A DNA stretch of 64,000 nt from Aspidapion aeneum (taxonomy: Eukaryota > Arthropoda > Insecta > Coleoptera > Brentidae), in the NCBI GenBank assembly GCA_963576565.1, contig OY755047.1:25613171-25677170 (forward strand), in the 5' to 3' direction. Both the position numbers and the translations under genes were made by a program. Below, piece by piece: positions 4,380 to 59,544 of the stretch. The notes beneath the pieces were generated by a model. That model searched no databases. It was not told the DNA's origin and saw nothing but the letters and a program-made list of their open reading frames with translations. Within the stretch, counting starts at the first letter, position 1; each line of letters begins with the position of its first letter.

Positions 4380-5405
4380 ACCCCATATGACCAAAATGGC
4401 CAAACTTTGAATATTCATATTTTAAAAACTATCTAGTTTATCTACAAAAGCACCGAATTTTGACAACGCTTCAATGTTATACAGATCTGGGGCTAATAAA
4501 TGTTTCTACATTTTTTTTATTACAAAAGGAATCTTTGTACAAGGAGAAGAAAAAAATTAGGAGTATGTAAGATAAAAGTTTTAGGTTTAACAAAAAATAG
4601 GCGCTGTAGTAAATAAAAGTTATGTAATATACAATAACGTGTATATTTATAAATATAATTTGTTTTTAAATTAATTTATTGTATATATTTTAAAACTTCC
4701 ATAAAGACTATTAAACTCTTAATATTTTTAAAGCTAGAAAATTTGCAACAAGATTTAGCTAGCTAAAGCAAAATTTTAAACAATCTTGAAAAATAAAAAA
4801 ATAAGTTTGTGGGCAAATCCTCAAAAGTAGGGTAACAGTAGCTCGTATACTACACGGGAGTTTCGGCCTTGTTGGGCACTTCTCAGTACGAGCGTAACCA
4901 ACGTAAGTGAGCGATGAATGGTGATGATATCTTTAAATTTTGGGTCTTATTTTGTAGTAAGTAATCATTTATAAAAGATAAATAAATAATTAATTGGCAT
5001 AATTTATAATAAAAAATGTCTCAACACTGTTTAAATTTTTGCTTTAATTTACTTTAAAATAAAATAAAAGTTTGCAAATATCTTTATAATAAAAACAACG
5101 AAAAACCACTACCTAAAATTATTTAATAGGTGTCATTGATTAGGGATTTTTAATCAATGTTAATTAATACTTTGATTCATATAAAGTCATACTGATCAAT
5201 AAAACTGATATAGGTTGTGTTTTCTACTTTTTGGGGCAAATGTGTCAACATAGTTAATTGTAAATCCTTTTTTCCAATAAGATAAGCTAAGCTGTTGGTA
5301 ATTTTATTTGCTATTCTTAAATTTTTCACTTATTTTTTTCTTTCATTGTTATTTTAAGTGAAAAGGAAAAATTACTTATGGGTTCTTAAAGAGTATCAGG
5401 ATTAG
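4380..5405. repeat. 1-kb dispersed repeat, copy A
   Basis: This stretch aligns with 7655-8665 in the same orientation over about 1 kb (for example GGAGAAGAAAAAAATTAGGAG, TAGCTCGTATACTAC, ACTATTAAACTCTTAATA), with scattered substitutions and small indels. No coding capacity seen. It carries a short block (4848-4905) also present as a palindrome arm near 62880. Confidence 0.85.
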
Positions 5406-5480
5406 GATCAGATTTTGTGTGAGTTAAAGAAAAAGAGAAATTTTTTGTTTGAAACTCGTAGACAATGATTGTGTAGAAAA

Positions 5481-5650
5481 AAAATTTCGGACTTCCATTG
5501 TCTTTATATATTTTAAAACACGACGTTTCGGTTAGTAAGTATCTCTAACCGTTATCAAGTGTAAACTAAACAATCTAGTCTCTAGGCTACTACTTATACT
5601 ACTTGGTGTGCAGTCAGGTGTGACGGTCCGCCCCCTTTTTTAATCCTAAG
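5481..5650 (-). repeat. Penelope-like element left terminal arm (inverted)
   Basis: Reverse complement of 7080-7249 with no length difference. Starts at AAAATTTCGGACTTCC and ends at TTAATCCTAAG. Confidence 0.88.
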
Positions 5651-6807
5651 AAGTATGCTGAAAATATCCCGGACGCTGCTAGATCTCGCCTGACTCCACA
5701 CCACAGTAAGGCACCACATTTTTATGGATTACCAAAGATCCATAACTGCGACCAATTACCAGCTCCAGGGACTCACCGACCAGCACTTTGTCGAGGTTTT
5801 TGTTGGACATAATTCAACCACTACAGGGTAAGTCCGAATCTTTTGTCAAAAACTCGGAACATTTTGTGGAGGTTTTAAAAGGTATCGAATTAGATCCCGG
5901 CGATAGATTTGTAAGTTTTGATGTAGAAAGTCTCTACACCAACGTGCCAATAAATGAGTCACTCAGTATCATTAAAAACAAATTACAAACTGATGATACA
6001 CTTCACGAGAGAACAACGCTATCGGTAGAGGGGGTGATGGATCTTTTGGAGCTCTGTCGCTGTAACTCTTACTTTCAAGTGAAAGATAAGTTTTACGCGC
6101 AAAATGATGGACCCTCATCTCTTTCGCCAGTGGTAGCAAACATCTACATGGAGTGGTTCGAGGGCCATGCGATCAACACAGCAAGATTCAAACCAAAACT
6201 ATGGCTACGATACATGGATGACACAATTATTATATGGCCGGAAAATGATGACGAACTACAAAATTTTCTACACCATTTAAACGGTATTCGACCAACAATC
6301 AAGTGCATCATGGAAATTGAAAAAGATTCGGCCTTACCTTTTTTGGATGTTCTTGTCAAACGATTAGACAGAAACATTCAAACCACTGTATATAGGAAAC
6401 CTACACACACGTGACAGTACCTAAATTTTAAGTCTAATCATTCTGTTGCAACAAAACAAGGAGTTATAAGAAGTTTGTATTTAAGAGCCGTAAATATTTG
6501 TAGTAATAATGAAGAATTAACCACAGAAATTAACAACATTAAAAAGGACTTACAACAGAATGGTTATTCCGAGAAATTAATAAACTCAACGATATTTAAA
6601 ATTAAAAACAAACTAAATGTACCAAATTCTCAAAATAATAATCCGTTAGGTGTTATTAACATTCCATATGTTCAAGGGATTTCAGAAAACATAAGACGAA
6701 TAGCTAAACACTATAATATAAAAACAGTATTTTCTTCGGGAAATACGATAAGAATATTAAGGAATGTATTTACCAAATCCCGTGTGAGTGTGGTAAATCA
6801 TATGTAG
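5651..6807 (+). pseudogene. Penelope-like reverse transcriptase, broken
   Basis: RT of a Penelope-like element. Visible blocks: HFYGLPKIH (about 5719-5745), FLLDIIQPLQGKSESF, FVSFDVESLYTNVPI, LSPVVANIYMEWFE, catalytic box RYMDDTIIIW (from about 6208), LPFLDVLV and VYRKPTHT, then YLNFKSNHS and QGVIRSLYLRAVNIC in the thumb region. Damage: a frameshift between about 5745 and 5788, and a TGA at 6412-6414 within the THT-YLNF block, after which the same frame stays open to 6804. No N-terminal part is present upstream of the left arm boundary. Confidence 0.9.
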
Positions 6808-7136
6808 GTGAAACGAAACGCCCTCTTCAGGTTAGAGTAAATGAACATCTAAAAAGTACCCAATTAGGGGATATTGAAAAATCCGGTTTAGCAGATCATG
6901 CATGGTCAAATGATCACAGGATTCAGTGGTCAGAAGCTAAAGTTTTACATAAGGAGTCGCATTGGCGAAAACGAAAGTTTATTGAAGCTGCGTATATAAT
7001 GCAGAATAAAGAAGTTTTCAGTCAACCAAGCACGGACATACCAAACATATGGAAACCACTCCTTAAGGAAAACAGGCGTCTTAGGATTAAAAAAGGGGGC
7101 GGACCGTCACACCTGACTGCACACCAAGTAGTATAA
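6762..7136 (+). pseudogene. GIY-YIG endonuclease domain of the Penelope-like element
   Basis: A 124-codon open stretch in another frame than the RT begins ECIYQIPCECGKSYVGETKR, followed by PLQVRVNEHLKS, SGLADHAWSNDH and RKRKFIEAAYI. IYQI..SYVG is the GIY-YIG signature, with the downstream Arg and the Glu of FIEA in the expected order. It is out of frame with the RT by a frameshift near 6760. The stop falls inside the right terminal arm. Confidence 0.88.
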
Positions 7137-7249
7137 GTAGTAGCCTAGAGACTAGATTGTTTAGTTTACACTTGATAACGGTTAGAGATACTTACTAACC
7201 GAAACGTCGTGTTTTAAAATATATAAAGACAATGGAAGTCCGAAATTTT
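7080..7249 (+). repeat. Penelope-like element right terminal arm
   Basis: Inverted partner of 5481-5650. It includes the end of the GIY-YIG frame (stop at 7134-7136) and the hammerhead-like motif at 7167-7214. Confidence 0.88.
7167..7214 (+). ncRNA. Hammerhead-like ribozyme motif in the Penelope-like terminal arm
   Basis: Order seen: ACAC, TTGATAA (core-like, 7172-7178), stem II GGTTAG/CTAACC around a short loop, GAAACGTC, then GTGT pairing back to ACAC as stem I. Relative to the CUGANGA..GAAA core, two bases differ (first C is T, G8 is A), so activity is doubtful. Hammerheads with a minimal stem III are known from Penelope-like elements. An inverted copy lies in the left arm (about 5516-5563). 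Confidence 0.6.
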
Positions 7250-7654
7250 ATTTCTAAAAAGAGAAATATTATACAATGCTGCCGGTTTTTTACTTTAGTT
7301 GCATTAAAAATAATGTTTTCTTTTACTCTAGTAGTTAAAGTAAAATTTTTGATACTGCTATTGTCATCTTTACGATAAAATGCCAAAATAAGCTTACCGA
7401 ATTAATGCCACACCAATTCGGCACAGAAGCCTGTAAAGTCAATCGAGATGTTTTTTACCGTTGAAGGAGAAAACCCCCGTGACGTTTATCGATCTTAAAT
7501 TTTTTTGATTTTCGAATCTGTAATTTTTAAAAAAAAGAAAATATACAGTTTATCCGCAAAAGCACTAAGCTGCAGTATGGTAAGGCTATAGAGATGCGAA
7601 GAAACCACACCCTGAGTAAAAATTCGGAAAAACGTCATTTATCGAATTTTAATC

Positions 7655-8665
7655 CCATAAGACCAAAATGGCCAAACTTTGAAAATTTATATTTTACGAA
7701 CTATCTGGTTTATCATCAAAAGCACAGAATTTTTGACAAAGTGTTAATGCTATACAGATTTGGGGCTAATAAATGTTTCTATATTTTTTTTCAGTACAAA
7801 AGGAGTCTTTGTACAAGGAGAAGAAAAAAATTAGGAGTATGTAAGGTAAAAGTTTTAGGTTTAACAAAAGATAGGGCTGTAGTAAACAAAAGTAATGTAA
7901 TATACAATAACGTGTATATTTATAAATATAAATATAATTTGTTTTTAAATAAATTTATTGTATATTATATTTTAAAACTTCCATAAAGACTATTAAACTC
8001 TTAATATTTTTAAAGCTAGAACATTTGCAACAGGATTTAGTTAGCTAAAGCAAAATTTTAAACAATCTTGAGAAATAAAAAATAAGTTTGTGGGCAAATC
8101 CTCAAAAGTAGGGTAACAGTAGCTCGTATACTATACGGAAGTTTCGGCCTTGTTGGGCACTTCTCAGTACGAGCGTAACCAACGTAAAGGAGCGATGAAT
8201 GGTGATGATATCTTTCAATTTTGAGAAATTTTGGGTCTTATTTTGTAGTAAGTAATCATTTGTAAAAGATAAATAAATTAAAAATTGGCATAATTTATAA
8301 TAAGACATGTCTCAACACTGTTTAAATTTTGGTTTAATTTAAAATAAAAGAAAAGTTTGCAAATATCTTTATAATAAAAACAACGAAAAACCACTACCTA
8401 CAATTATTTAATAGGTGTCATTGATTAGGGATTTTGAATCAATGTTAATTAATACTTTGATTCGTGTAAAGTCATACTGATCAATAAAACTATTTGGGGA
8501 AAAATATTTAATTGTCAAACATTTTTTTCCAGCAAGCTAAGCTGTTGGTAATTTCATTTGTTATGCTCAAATGTTTCACTTATTTATTTGTCTCATTGTT
8601 CTTTATCTACATTGTATCATTATAAAAAATTGCTTATAGGTTCCTAAAGGGTGATCTAGAATTAG
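7655..8665. repeat. 1-kb dispersed repeat, copy B
   Basis: Direct-orientation relative of 4380-5405. It starts in a satellite-like monomer and fades out near TCCTAAAGGGTGATCTAG. No gene seen inside. Confidence 0.85.
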
Positions 8666-9696: not shown

Positions 9697-40592
<30,896 letters not shown>

Positions 40593-46380: not shown

Positions 46381-46794
46381 TTTTATTTCGTTTACTACCT
46401 CAATCTTCGATATGTATTATTGCTTTATAAAAAATAGAATCTATAAATAGTTAAATCTAAAACCTACTCCCTATTTTTATTAGCCAAATAATCAATTAGT
46501 TTTTGATATGTTATCAATAAGAACAGTAGAAATCTAATCTGCGTGAATCAATCAATTTTTAGACACCACCAAAAATTATTGGAAGTCAATCAGTCATTAC
46601 AAATACATACAGAAATGTGTCTGGATTCTGGGAGTCTATTCTTCAAACACGAATCTTATAAAATCTTAAATAGAAAACAACAATTTTTGGTGGCTAAGCG
46701 AGAATAAAAAGATTTTGTTTCTCCTGTATTTTTCCGTGGGAAGCTCGAAAACTGTACACACACAGGGGTCCAAGATCTAATGGACACCTATTAA

Positions 46795-46840
46795 GTTTTG
46801 ACAGTTAACTGTTTCGTCCTTACGGGACTCTTCAGAACAC
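46795..46840 (-). ncRNA. Type I hammerhead ribozyme, canonical core (copy e)
   Basis: Read 5' to 3' on the minus strand: stem I strand GTGTT, core CTGAAGA, stem II GTCC-CGTAA-GGAC, GAA, stem III ACAG-TTAA-CTGT, cleavage C, then AAAAC as the stem I partner. All invariant core bases (C3 U4 G5 A6, G8 A9, G12 A13 A14, A15.1-U16.1, H17) are present. Stem I has one mismatch of five. The 4-bp stem III with UUAA loop is short, as in dimer-active hammerheads of animal retrozymes. Confidence 0.88.
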
Positions 46841-47284
46841 TGCATGGTCAATGTGACACTTTTGCAAAGCTACAGAGACGGTATATTTTCATTTTACGAT
46901 CTTGGTAAGAGAAATGAATAAATAATGCCTACGATACCGTATCCTTTTACATAAGTGGCGACAACTACAAATACAAAAGAAACCAGAGTAAAAATAAAAG
47001 GAAGGCAGATGAAACAAAAACAGTACTCATGACCGTGACATAACTTGTCCCTCAGGTCGGGCATATTGCATTTTTTCCGCCTTCGCAACGTTTTATGTGG
47101 AGTCAGCGGAGCGTGAGCTAAAAATACTACAAACGTGAAGTTTAGTACCCGTAAATAAAAAAAAAAACAACAGCTTTTCGTGGCTAAGCGGGCATGGATA
47201 GATTTTGTTTTTCTTGTATTTTTCTGTGGGCAGCTCGAAAGCTGTACACCCACGGGGGTCCAAAATGTAATGGATACCTATTAA

Positions 47285-47330
47285 GTGTTGACAGTTAACT
47301 GTTTCGTCCTTAAGTGACTCTTCAGAACAC
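47285..47330 (-). ncRNA. Type I hammerhead ribozyme, weak stem II (copy f)
   Basis: Core CTGAAGA, GAA, stem III ACAG-TTAA-CTGT and cleavage C are intact, and stem I GTGTT/AACAC pairs fully. Stem II has one loop-side mismatch (GTCA/GGAC). Confidence 0.83.
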
Positions 47331-47474
47331 TGCATGGTCAATGTGACACTTTTGTAAAGCAACAGAGACGGTATATGAATCTCATCTTACGATATTGGTA
47401 AGAGAAATGAATAAATAATGCCTGCGATACCGTATGCTTGCACATAAGTGGCGATATCTACAAATACAAAGTGA

Positions 47475-47660
47475 AATAAGGACGAAACAGTTAACTGTCA
47501 ACACTTAATAGTTGTCCATTAGATCTTGGACTCCAGTAGGTGTACAGCTTTCGAGCTGCCCACGGAAACATACAAGAGAAACAAAATCTTTCTATGCCAG
47601 CTTAGCCACGAAAAGTTGTTTTTTTTTATTCACGGGTACTAAACTTCACGTTTGTAGTAT
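47475..47660 (+). repeat. Inverted partial retrozyme-like unit
   Basis: Plus-strand fragment starting inside the hammerhead (GGACGAAACAGTTAACTGTC) and running to TTCACGGGTACTAAACTTC. It lacks the CTGAAGA half. With 47136-47475 it forms an inverted arrangement. Confidence 0.8.
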
Positions 47661-55680: not shown

Positions 55681-56735
55681 GATGGAAAAAACAAGATAAG
55701 AGCCGTGATAAAATATTTTCATATCAAAGGGTTATCGCCGACCGAAATAAAAGCTGAACTGGATGCTACAATAGGAGAATCTGCTCCTTCCTATACCACA
55801 GTTAAAACCTAGGTATCGGACTTTAAACGTGGTCATACTAGCACTGATGATGCTCCGCGTTCTGGCAGGCCAAAAACGGCAACTTCTGAAGAAATGGTGC
55901 AAACCATTCACAAACTAATTCTAAAAAATCGCAGATTAAGACTGGTAGAGGTAGCTGAGGTTGTGGGCATATCAAAAGACCGTGTTCACCATATTTTATG
56001 TGAAGTTTTAGGTATGAGAAAGCTAGCCGCCCGATGGGTGCCGCGTTTGCTCATGCCAGATCAAAAGCTCGTGCGTCTAATCATTTCAGAGGAGAATTTG
56101 GCACTGTTTAGACGTGATTCAGGGGACTTTTTGGGTAGATTATTATACCCCTGAAACTAACCAACAGTCCAAACAATGGACGGCAAAGGACGAACCAGTT
56201 CCAAAGAAGGCAAAGGCAGTACCATCTGCTGGAAAGGTCATGGCAACGGTCTTTTGGGACGCTAAACGGATACTTCTCATAGATTATCTCGAAAAAGGAA
56301 GAACAATAAATTCAGAGTACTACAGCGACTTACTGGACCAGCTCAACCAGAATCTAAGCAAAAAACGTCCTGGTTTGGCAAAAAAGAAAATTCTGTTTCA
56401 TCAAGACAATGCACCTTGCCACAAGTCCGCTCTTGTAATGGCTAAAATCCATCAGCTAGGCTTCGAACTGTTAAACCATCCATCTTATTCGGCAGACCTA
56501 GCCCCGTCAGACTTTTATTTGTTTCCAAACCTAAAAAAAATTCTTGCTGGAAAAGAATTTTCCTCAGATTTAGAAGTCATTGCAGCTACAAACGCCTATT
56601 TTGACGAGTTGGATAAATCACACATCAGTGATGGCATCAAATCAGTTGAACATCGGGGACTATGTAAAAATAATGTTACGGGTTCACAACGACAAATTAA
56701 AACTCGCAATTGTTGAAAACGATACGTCAATTTAT
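55681..56735 (+). pseudogene. Mariner transposase (DD34D type), broken
   Basis: Helix-turn-helix region: KNKIRAVIKYFHIKGLSPTE, then a TAG at 55810-55812 where W is expected, then FKRGHTSTDDAPRSGRPKT, LRLVEVAEVVGISKDRVHHI and the WVPRLL linker. At about 56125-56140 a deletion and frameshift remove the block with the first catalytic Asp. The second (FHQDNAPCHKS) and third (LAPSDFYLFP) Asp remain, 34 residues apart. A second frameshift near 56650 precedes the usual GDYV end. It cannot be functional. Confidence 0.93.
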
Positions 56736-58894: not shown

Positions 58895-59014
58895 ACAGGC
58901 CATGTTTTTGTACTAAAACTATAGCCATAAAGCTAGCAAGGCGTTACATCCTAATAATAGAATAATAGAAACTTTTTGGACCAGTAAATTGCCTCTAAAA
59001 ACTAAAACAATAAT

Positions 59015-59520
59015 CGTAAAGTTTAGTACCCGTGAATAAAAATACAAAAACATTTTCGTGGCTAAACGGGTATAGAAAAATTTTCCGGGGGTCCAAGCTC
59101 TAATGTATGTATGTATGTATGTATGTATTCGAAAGTGGTGGCAGGCCCTACTGGACCTCCATGCACTGCGACCACAAATGGATCTATTGTGCCCATGTAC
59201 CTACATACTGAGTTTGACTAAAGTGGCATATTTTTTTTTCCACCCAGTACATGAAAAAACTCTGCAGATTACAACAATAAATGATTTAGGCTTAACACTT
59301 TGGCTCAAAGATATACCACTAAGGCCTCTGCATTATAAGATCTAATGGACACCTATCAAGTGTTGACAGTTAACTGGCCATGGTCAATGTGACACTTTTT
59401 TAAAGCTACAGAGACGGTATATAAATCTCATCGTACGATATTGGTAAGAGAAATAAATAAATAATGCCTGCGATACCGTTTACTTTCACATAAGTGGCGA
59501 CATCTACAAATACAAAAAAA
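59015..59520 (-). repeat. Retrozyme-like unit, damaged and interrupted
   Basis: AGTTTAGTACCCGTGAATAA, TTCGTGGCTAAACGGG and GGGGTCCAAGCTCTAATG, then the 59103-59335 insertion, then GTGTTGACAGTTAACTGGCC. A deletion removes most of the hammerhead core; CAGAGACGGTATAT and ACATAAGTGGCGA follow. Single unit. Confidence 0.8.
59103..59335 (-). mobile_element. (ACAT)n-tailed retroelement 3' fragment, second copy
   Basis: Inverted relative of 15866-16075; the tail appears as (TATG)n at 59103-59128 on the plus strand. Near-identical flanks AAGCTCTAATG and AAGATCTAATG form a target duplication of about 11 bp, so it inserted into the retrozyme-like unit by target-primed reverse transcription. Confidence 0.82.
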
Positions 59521-59544
59521 ACTAGCAATAGTTTCGATAGGAAC

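Follow-up and report, generated by a model that had tools for sequence, protein, structure and literature searches.

Dispersed hammerhead ribozyme units with Penelope-type ends in the genome of the beetle Aspidapion aeneum

A dispersed ribozyme unit and its candidate mobiliser

The window, a 64-kb stretch of the genome of Aspidapion aeneum, contains six type I hammerhead ribozyme (HHR) motifs on the minus strand, which form partial tandems with a spacing of 490-506 bp; two fragments are also present. All belong to a dispersed non-coding retrozyme-like element built on the type I HHR and divided into two subfamilies, A and B. Its copy number, its intact cores, its partial tandems and the conservation of the HHR between subfamilies lend good support to this reading. 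The ribozyme is predicted to be self-cleaving, and the element is likely copied and inserted by the enzyme of a Penelope-like element (PLE) of the same genome, since its two preferred 3' sites and the inverted pieces on its 5' side match PLE anatomy. These Penelope-type ends, absent from an earlier sequence-only reading of the same DNA, are the most informative feature of the element.

Hammerhead motifs of the window

The minus strand carries the block CTGA(A/G)GA - stem II - GAAACAG-TTAA-CTGTC at 47325-47302 and again at 46835-46812 (locus A, spacing 490 bp); blocks of the same type lie, on the same strand, at 20431-20408 and 19925-19902 (locus B, spacing 506 bp), and a further pair of them is found at 22077 and at 21571. 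The sequence-only reading had described these pairs, the latter as duplicated, and its coordinates are confirmed. Its two fragments, placed at 47475 and 59354, are real and correspond to the inverted piece beside locus A and to the solo unit (Table 1), and its predicted cleavage positions, after C 47290 in the first HHR of locus A and after C 46800 in the second, minus strand, were right. This 47-kb pair is the only one of the window with intact core and cut site, each of its HHRs having one stem mismatch. At the 20-kb pair and its duplicate the announced motif is present, but A9 is changed to G in one HHR and the other has lost the closing pair of stem III and C17; owing to these core and stem changes the four HHRs are predicted to be inactive or weak. 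The tandem duplication spanning locus B (window 19708-22800, at least 1447 bp 100% identical, offset 1646 bp) is either very recent or an assembly artefact.

Table 1. Positions of the ribozymes, units and PLE copy (numbering of the window, except where a contig is given).
Feature	Position	Strand	Remarks
HHR 1 of locus A	47285..47330	-	intact core; stem I 5/5, stem II 3/4, stem III 3/3
HHR 2 of locus A	46795..46840	-	intact core; stem I 4/5, stem II 4/4, stem III 3/3
Locus A, first unit, 5'-truncated (element 154-491)	47131..47470	-	BLAST to unit, 89%
Locus A, second unit (element 1-463)	46668..47130	-	3' end inside first preferred 3'-end zone
Inverted piece, 5' side of locus A (element 309-491)	47477..47653	+	88%; outer end at second preferred 3' site
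Locus B, first unit, 5'-truncated	20230..20526	-	HHR 20436-20391, A9 to G (CTGAGGG)
Locus B, second unit	19753..20229	-	HHR 19930-19885, altered stem III and cut site
Duplicate of locus B	21399..22172	-	HHRs 22082-22037 and 21576-21531; 100% identity
Solo unit	59012..59525	-	two blocks, 59525-59337 and 59084-59012; nested insert, HHR core deleted
PLE copy	5474..7256	+	178-bp inverted terminal repeats, 99%; RT piece 5746-6414, GIY-YIG-type piece 6717-7136
HHR of third family (locus L001, ~1507-1550)	C9:59493794-59493840	-	palindromic stem III; A9 to U in this copy

A search of the window against Rfam gave no HHR call at the gathering score, the best scores being 24.2 and 21.6 bits with RF00008 (E 1 and 5.5). 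The genome scan with a hammerhead covariance model which the sequence-only reading had put forward, carried out with RF00163 (74 scored of 155,298 candidates), detected one place, and this belongs to a third HHR family described below.

Locus B has a 268-bp terminal direct repeat flanking a 238-bp middle. An LTR-retrotransposon reading of this repeat was dropped because the 5' ends are truncated at scattered positions. Plant LTR retrozymes, in the account of PMC7761336, are of similar build, direct terminal repeats containing two HHRs being placed on either side of a short non-coding middle, but theirs are type III HHRs, accompanied by a primer binding site and a polypurine tract, and 4 bp of the target are duplicated. 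Here helix I is open in the HHR, which is accordingly of type I and not of the type III that characterises the plant elements.

Copy number and dispersal

The 35-base intact core has 3,387 exact matches (1666 + 1721) in the 1,286-Mb genome and 0 in the reversed control, so that the motif is enriched beyond chance, as had been anticipated. Scoring was applied to the best 40 candidates of each DNA search and the best 150 of the protein searches, and the A and B loci are therefore a top-scoring and not a random sample. Subfamily A gave 146 matches among the best 40 of 4,243 first-look candidates, with 79-97% identity to the query, itself excluded; subfamily B gave 151 among the best 40 of 3,841 candidates, full-length matches having 85-94% identity when the query's own two places are excluded. 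The 28 full A monomers, some of them from the same locus, are 5-8% off their majority and differ from one another by a median of 11.6%. Seven insertion loci, counting the B duplication once, are found in 264 kb of contiguous sequence including the window, and one of five further 10-kb stretches has pieces of the element.

A locus usually opens with a 5'-truncated unit, behind which lie one full unit or several; there are 1-17 units per locus (best 40 of 4,243 candidates). The unit is 490-520 bp long and has a low GC content (0.40 and 0.39). No ORF of at least 150 aa overlaps the units, which thus have no RT and GIY-YIG reading frame of the PLE kind.

Both the size of the unit and the presence of long arrays, of about 17 units at C8:9396786-9405203 and of 8 at C1:12909868, recall a satellite DNA spread by recombination rather than by reverse transcription, such as pDo500 of the cave cricket Dolichopoda (unit of 463-505 bp, PMC2837043). 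By its description there, pDo500 shares with the present element a single HHR in a unit of about 500 bp, a proposed dimeric form and an insect host. It is a satellite making up about 5% of one genome, whereas here dispersed dimers prevail: most scored loci have 1-3 units and are scattered over all eleven large contigs, and neither the preferred 3' ends nor the 5'-side inverted pieces described below are predicted by recombination. We regard a satellite origin as very improbable.

Consensus and conservation of the ribozyme

The majority HHR of the fetched copies has stem I GTGTT/AACAC, core CTGAAGA, stem II GTCC/GGAC, GAAA and stem III CAG-TTAA-CTG, followed by TC and the predicted cut. Of 51 copies, 30 show this core pattern, among them L035, which is a mis-parse due to a deletion. 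As stem III is a perfect palindrome (CAGUUAACUG), a dimeric ribozyme is possible, a form reported as demonstrated for axolotl retrozymes (PMC7229834). When the A copy of the window is compared with the B copy, identity is 87% in the HHR, 64% on its 3' side and 43% on its 5' side: it is the ribozyme and the 3' domain that have been retained in the lineages.

Within subfamily A the HHR is marginally more conserved than the rest (0.959 vs 0.933, p = 0.06), a trend only. In the HHR and hairpin stems of 56 copies 92.0% of the cells are paired vs 91.8% in shuffles; this lack of excess is explained by copies that are too alike. The compensatory changes in stems I-III looked for on the strength of the sequence-only reading were accordingly not above shuffles, and of the retrozyme-like mobile element which it proposed the dispersal, the non-coding unit, the type I HHR and the partial tandems stood, but not the covariation of stems. 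The trend within A and the absent covariation neither prove nor exclude function.

Two preferred 3' ends

For subfamily A an arbitrary element frame of 491 positions was used, in which the predicted cut falls after position 331. The 3' end could be read in 36 of 38 loci (best 40 of 4,243 candidates), and lies at 448-470, after TTGTTG(T)n, in 17, at 490-491, where it is preceded by ACTAAACTTTACGTTT or a close variant, in 8, and elsewhere in 11. One of these last (L054) ends within one base of the cut, no more than chance would give. The tail of the retrozyme is CGGGTACTAAA-TTTACGTTT. The ends of subfamily B were taken from match places alone, for the loci among the matches listed: past the cut, 16 of 39 lie at 128-144 nt, 18 at 156-183 nt and the remaining five at 90, 209, 312, 503 and 503, the last two being the edge of the query.

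In both subfamilies, therefore, two 3' sites with a spacing of about 35 bp account for most loci (25 of 36 in A, 34 of the 39 listed in B); the windows for these ends were chosen after the data had been seen, which makes their p values descriptive. Two 3' ends with a tail of 30-40 bp are the pattern of PLEs, for which an optional tail of this length between two reverse-transcription starts, and priming on two strands, have been described (PMC11167929).

Inverted pieces on the 5' side

An opposite-strand piece is present in 10 of 38 A loci (best 40 of 4,243 candidates), in all cases on the 5' side and in 0 on the 3' side; closer alignment added one in a further A locus (L041), on the 5' side too. 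Among the B loci listed, 14 of 39 have an inverted piece, again all on the 5' side with 0 on the 3' side. The outer ends of nine of these 14 fall on the two 3' sites (132, 136, 137, 175, 176, 176, 177, 177 and 177), the other five being at 87, 205, 425, 433 and 450. Two of the B loci with inverted pieces, located 3.4 kb apart on C3, look like mutual duplicates. Contrary to the rule, one locus outside the tabulated sets (L013) has its inverted piece on the 3' side; with this exception the head-to-head inverted terminal pieces, which accompany partial tandems of the PLE type, are confined to the 5' side. A LINE piece from the window, whose zf-RVT score of 27.1 bits is slightly below the cut-off, served as a control and had its 40 matches in 40 separate places; since the piece is coding, this control is partial.

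Partial tandems and head-to-head inverted pseudo-LTRs are described as typical of rotifer Penelope (PMC3846280). As portrayed in PMC11167929 and PMC3846280, PLEs resemble the present units in partial tandems, 5' truncation, head-to-head inverted ends and, downstream of an HHR, a pair of 3' ends separated by about 30-40 bp. They differ in that our units are non-coding, have a longer stem III and have no sequence in common with the PLE of the window.

Penelope-like elements of the same genome

The PLE copy of the window (Table 1) is a broken member of a candidate helper family. Its RT piece matches RVT_1 with 29.4 bits (cut-off 29.6); the Pfam search of its GIY-YIG piece gave no match even at E 10, and this assignment rests on homologues, of which P0004 has PF01541. 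The best 150 of 9,514 genome candidates for this PLE show 97-98% protein identity (query's copy excluded) and open frames of up to 858 aa: the genome harbours a PLE that is young and has long reading frames. PLE neighbours less than 6 kb apart are head-to-head in 22 cases, direct in 7 and tail-to-tail in 0 (best 150 of 9,514 candidates). There is no detectable sequence shared between the units and the PLE of the window. The PLE protein of anole is reported to cut both strands of AT-rich DNA and to start reverse transcription at internal sites (PMC11167929).

Short target-site duplications, which some PLE copies have, were sought in 19 loci and did not exceed chance: the mean shared word was 5.2 vs 4.8 in shuffles, a value reached by 7.5% of the shuffles; 9-bp matches are found in L037 and L043. 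In one locus (L053:180-272) a retrozyme 3' end directly adjoins that of a PLE terminal repeat, possibly by a template jump or by insertion at the junction. The terminal repeat of the window's PLE copy contains at 7171-7208 (+) the sequence TTGATAACGGTTAG...CTAACCGAAACGTC, which by eye looks like a decayed minimal HHR.

PLE-type ends, together with the 268-bp repeat around the 238-bp middle of locus B, would also be found if the units were internally deleted PLE derivatives whose pseudo-LTR carried the HHR, moved by the same PLE enzyme without a separate retrozyme lineage. Such an origin is unlikely: the units do not match the window's PLE, their HHR has a stem III of 3 bp plus loop, unlike the minimal PLE type as characterised in PMC7761336, and the same 5' inverted pieces are found in an unrelated HHR family with 330-bp units.

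Proposed mechanism and evidence on circles

In the retrozyme-like mechanism which we propose, dimer transcripts would be cut by their HHRs, either in cis or as a dimer via the palindromic stem III, and the monomer would be ligated into a circle. The PLE protein would bind the domain 3' of the HHR, cut DNA and start copying at one of two internal sites, the first some 117-140 nt and the second some 160-180 nt beyond the cut. Copying round the circle would yield more than one unit and would stop at variable points, hence a fixed 3' and a variable 5' end, and priming on the second target strand would add the inverted 5' piece. Cleavage by the HHR and RNA circles, the latter put at about 490-506 nt in the sequence-only reading, are both predicted steps.

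Units of the same locus have more derived changes in common than units of different loci, both over full monomers (0.54 in 20 pairs vs 0.08 in 358 pairs) and in the HHR domain (0.32 in 41 pairs vs 0.04 in 1,234 pairs); the A dimer of the window has 0 of 7 derived HHR-domain changes in common. Such sharing fits copying round one circle, and local homogenisation would give it equally. First units of A begin at the cut in 0 of 19 cases, with no peak of 5' ends. In B the first match starts 1-16 past the cut in 8 of the 39 loci listed, but position 1 is the edge of the query, so that these starts cannot decide on a peak at the cut.

The HHR might also be a passenger, with the PLE machinery copying multimers transcribed from tandem arrays in linear, uncut form and without any circle. 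In anole PLE, according to PMC11167929, insertion is normal when the HHR is mutated and the substrate is mainly RNA that has not been processed, and the missing 5'-end peak at the cut in A points in the same direction. The HHR is nevertheless far better kept between subfamilies than the 5' side, exact cores are numerous, and units within a locus share derived changes, though local homogenisation would do likewise. We hold a passenger role to be possible but rather doubtful.

A third hammerhead family and other ribozyme-like motifs

The place found with RF00163 (40.6 bits, in L001; Table 1) revealed a third classical HHR family unrelated to A and B. Its units are about 330 bp apart, with at least two direct pieces in 23 of 40 loci, and an inverted piece occurs on the 5' side in 8 of 40 loci and on the 3' side in 0 of 40 (best 40 of 613 candidates).

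Degenerate relatives of this family are present in the window at 4797-4900 and 8078-8181 (-), with 74 and 73% identity and a 7-bp stem I GCTCGTA/TACGAGC; they lie inside repeats about 3.28 kb apart, with the PLE copy in between. A pair of inverted HHR-like motifs at L011:4785 (-) and L011:5052 (+), with stem I GCCACA and a palindromic stem III CACGTG, resembles the minimal hammerheads of the PLE type.

Relation to known retrozymes

The closest description is that of the metazoan non-LTR retrozymes (PMC7229834). These, too, have a type I HHR in AT-rich tandem units that are short and non-coding, occur in thousands of copies as dimers or in longer arrays, and share their genome with PLEs. Their unit is given as about 170-400 nt, against 490-520 bp here; the PLE-type tail and 5' inverted ends are mapped in the present work, in which circles are only predicted. 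According to PMC7761336 no conserved motif of metazoan retrozymes reveals an autonomous partner, PLEs and Terminons being the likely candidates. In the open-licence literature, covered mostly at title level, we found no report of PLE-type tails or inverted ends on retrozymes.

Head-to-head 5' ends in both 500-bp subfamilies and in the unrelated 330-bp HHR family, together with the two tail-separated reverse-transcription starts of the 500-bp subfamilies, incline us slightly towards a general view of animal retrozymes as SINEs of Penelope, in which the PLE protein would copy ribozyme-made RNA circles and prime on both target strands. If true, this would explain the dimers, the inverted pieces and why PLEs and retrozymes occur together in animals, and Penelope-type ends would reveal the machinery, missing so far, that copies animal retrozymes. 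As end anatomy is a physical trace of the copying enzyme, the question of the partner can now be put to the test in any genome, and likewise with the PLE insertion assay that has been published.

Other features of the window

An ORF at 35253-35720 (-) with a Myosin_head match (Pfam, E 9.4e-26) is an exon of a host gene, and a piece of a mariner-type transposase (Transposase_1, DDE_3) is found at 56114-56716 (+). The long hairpin at 38518-38674 (+), which scores 45.9 bits with RF03557 (gathering score 100) and has repeats elsewhere in the window, is probably a palindromic DNA transposon.
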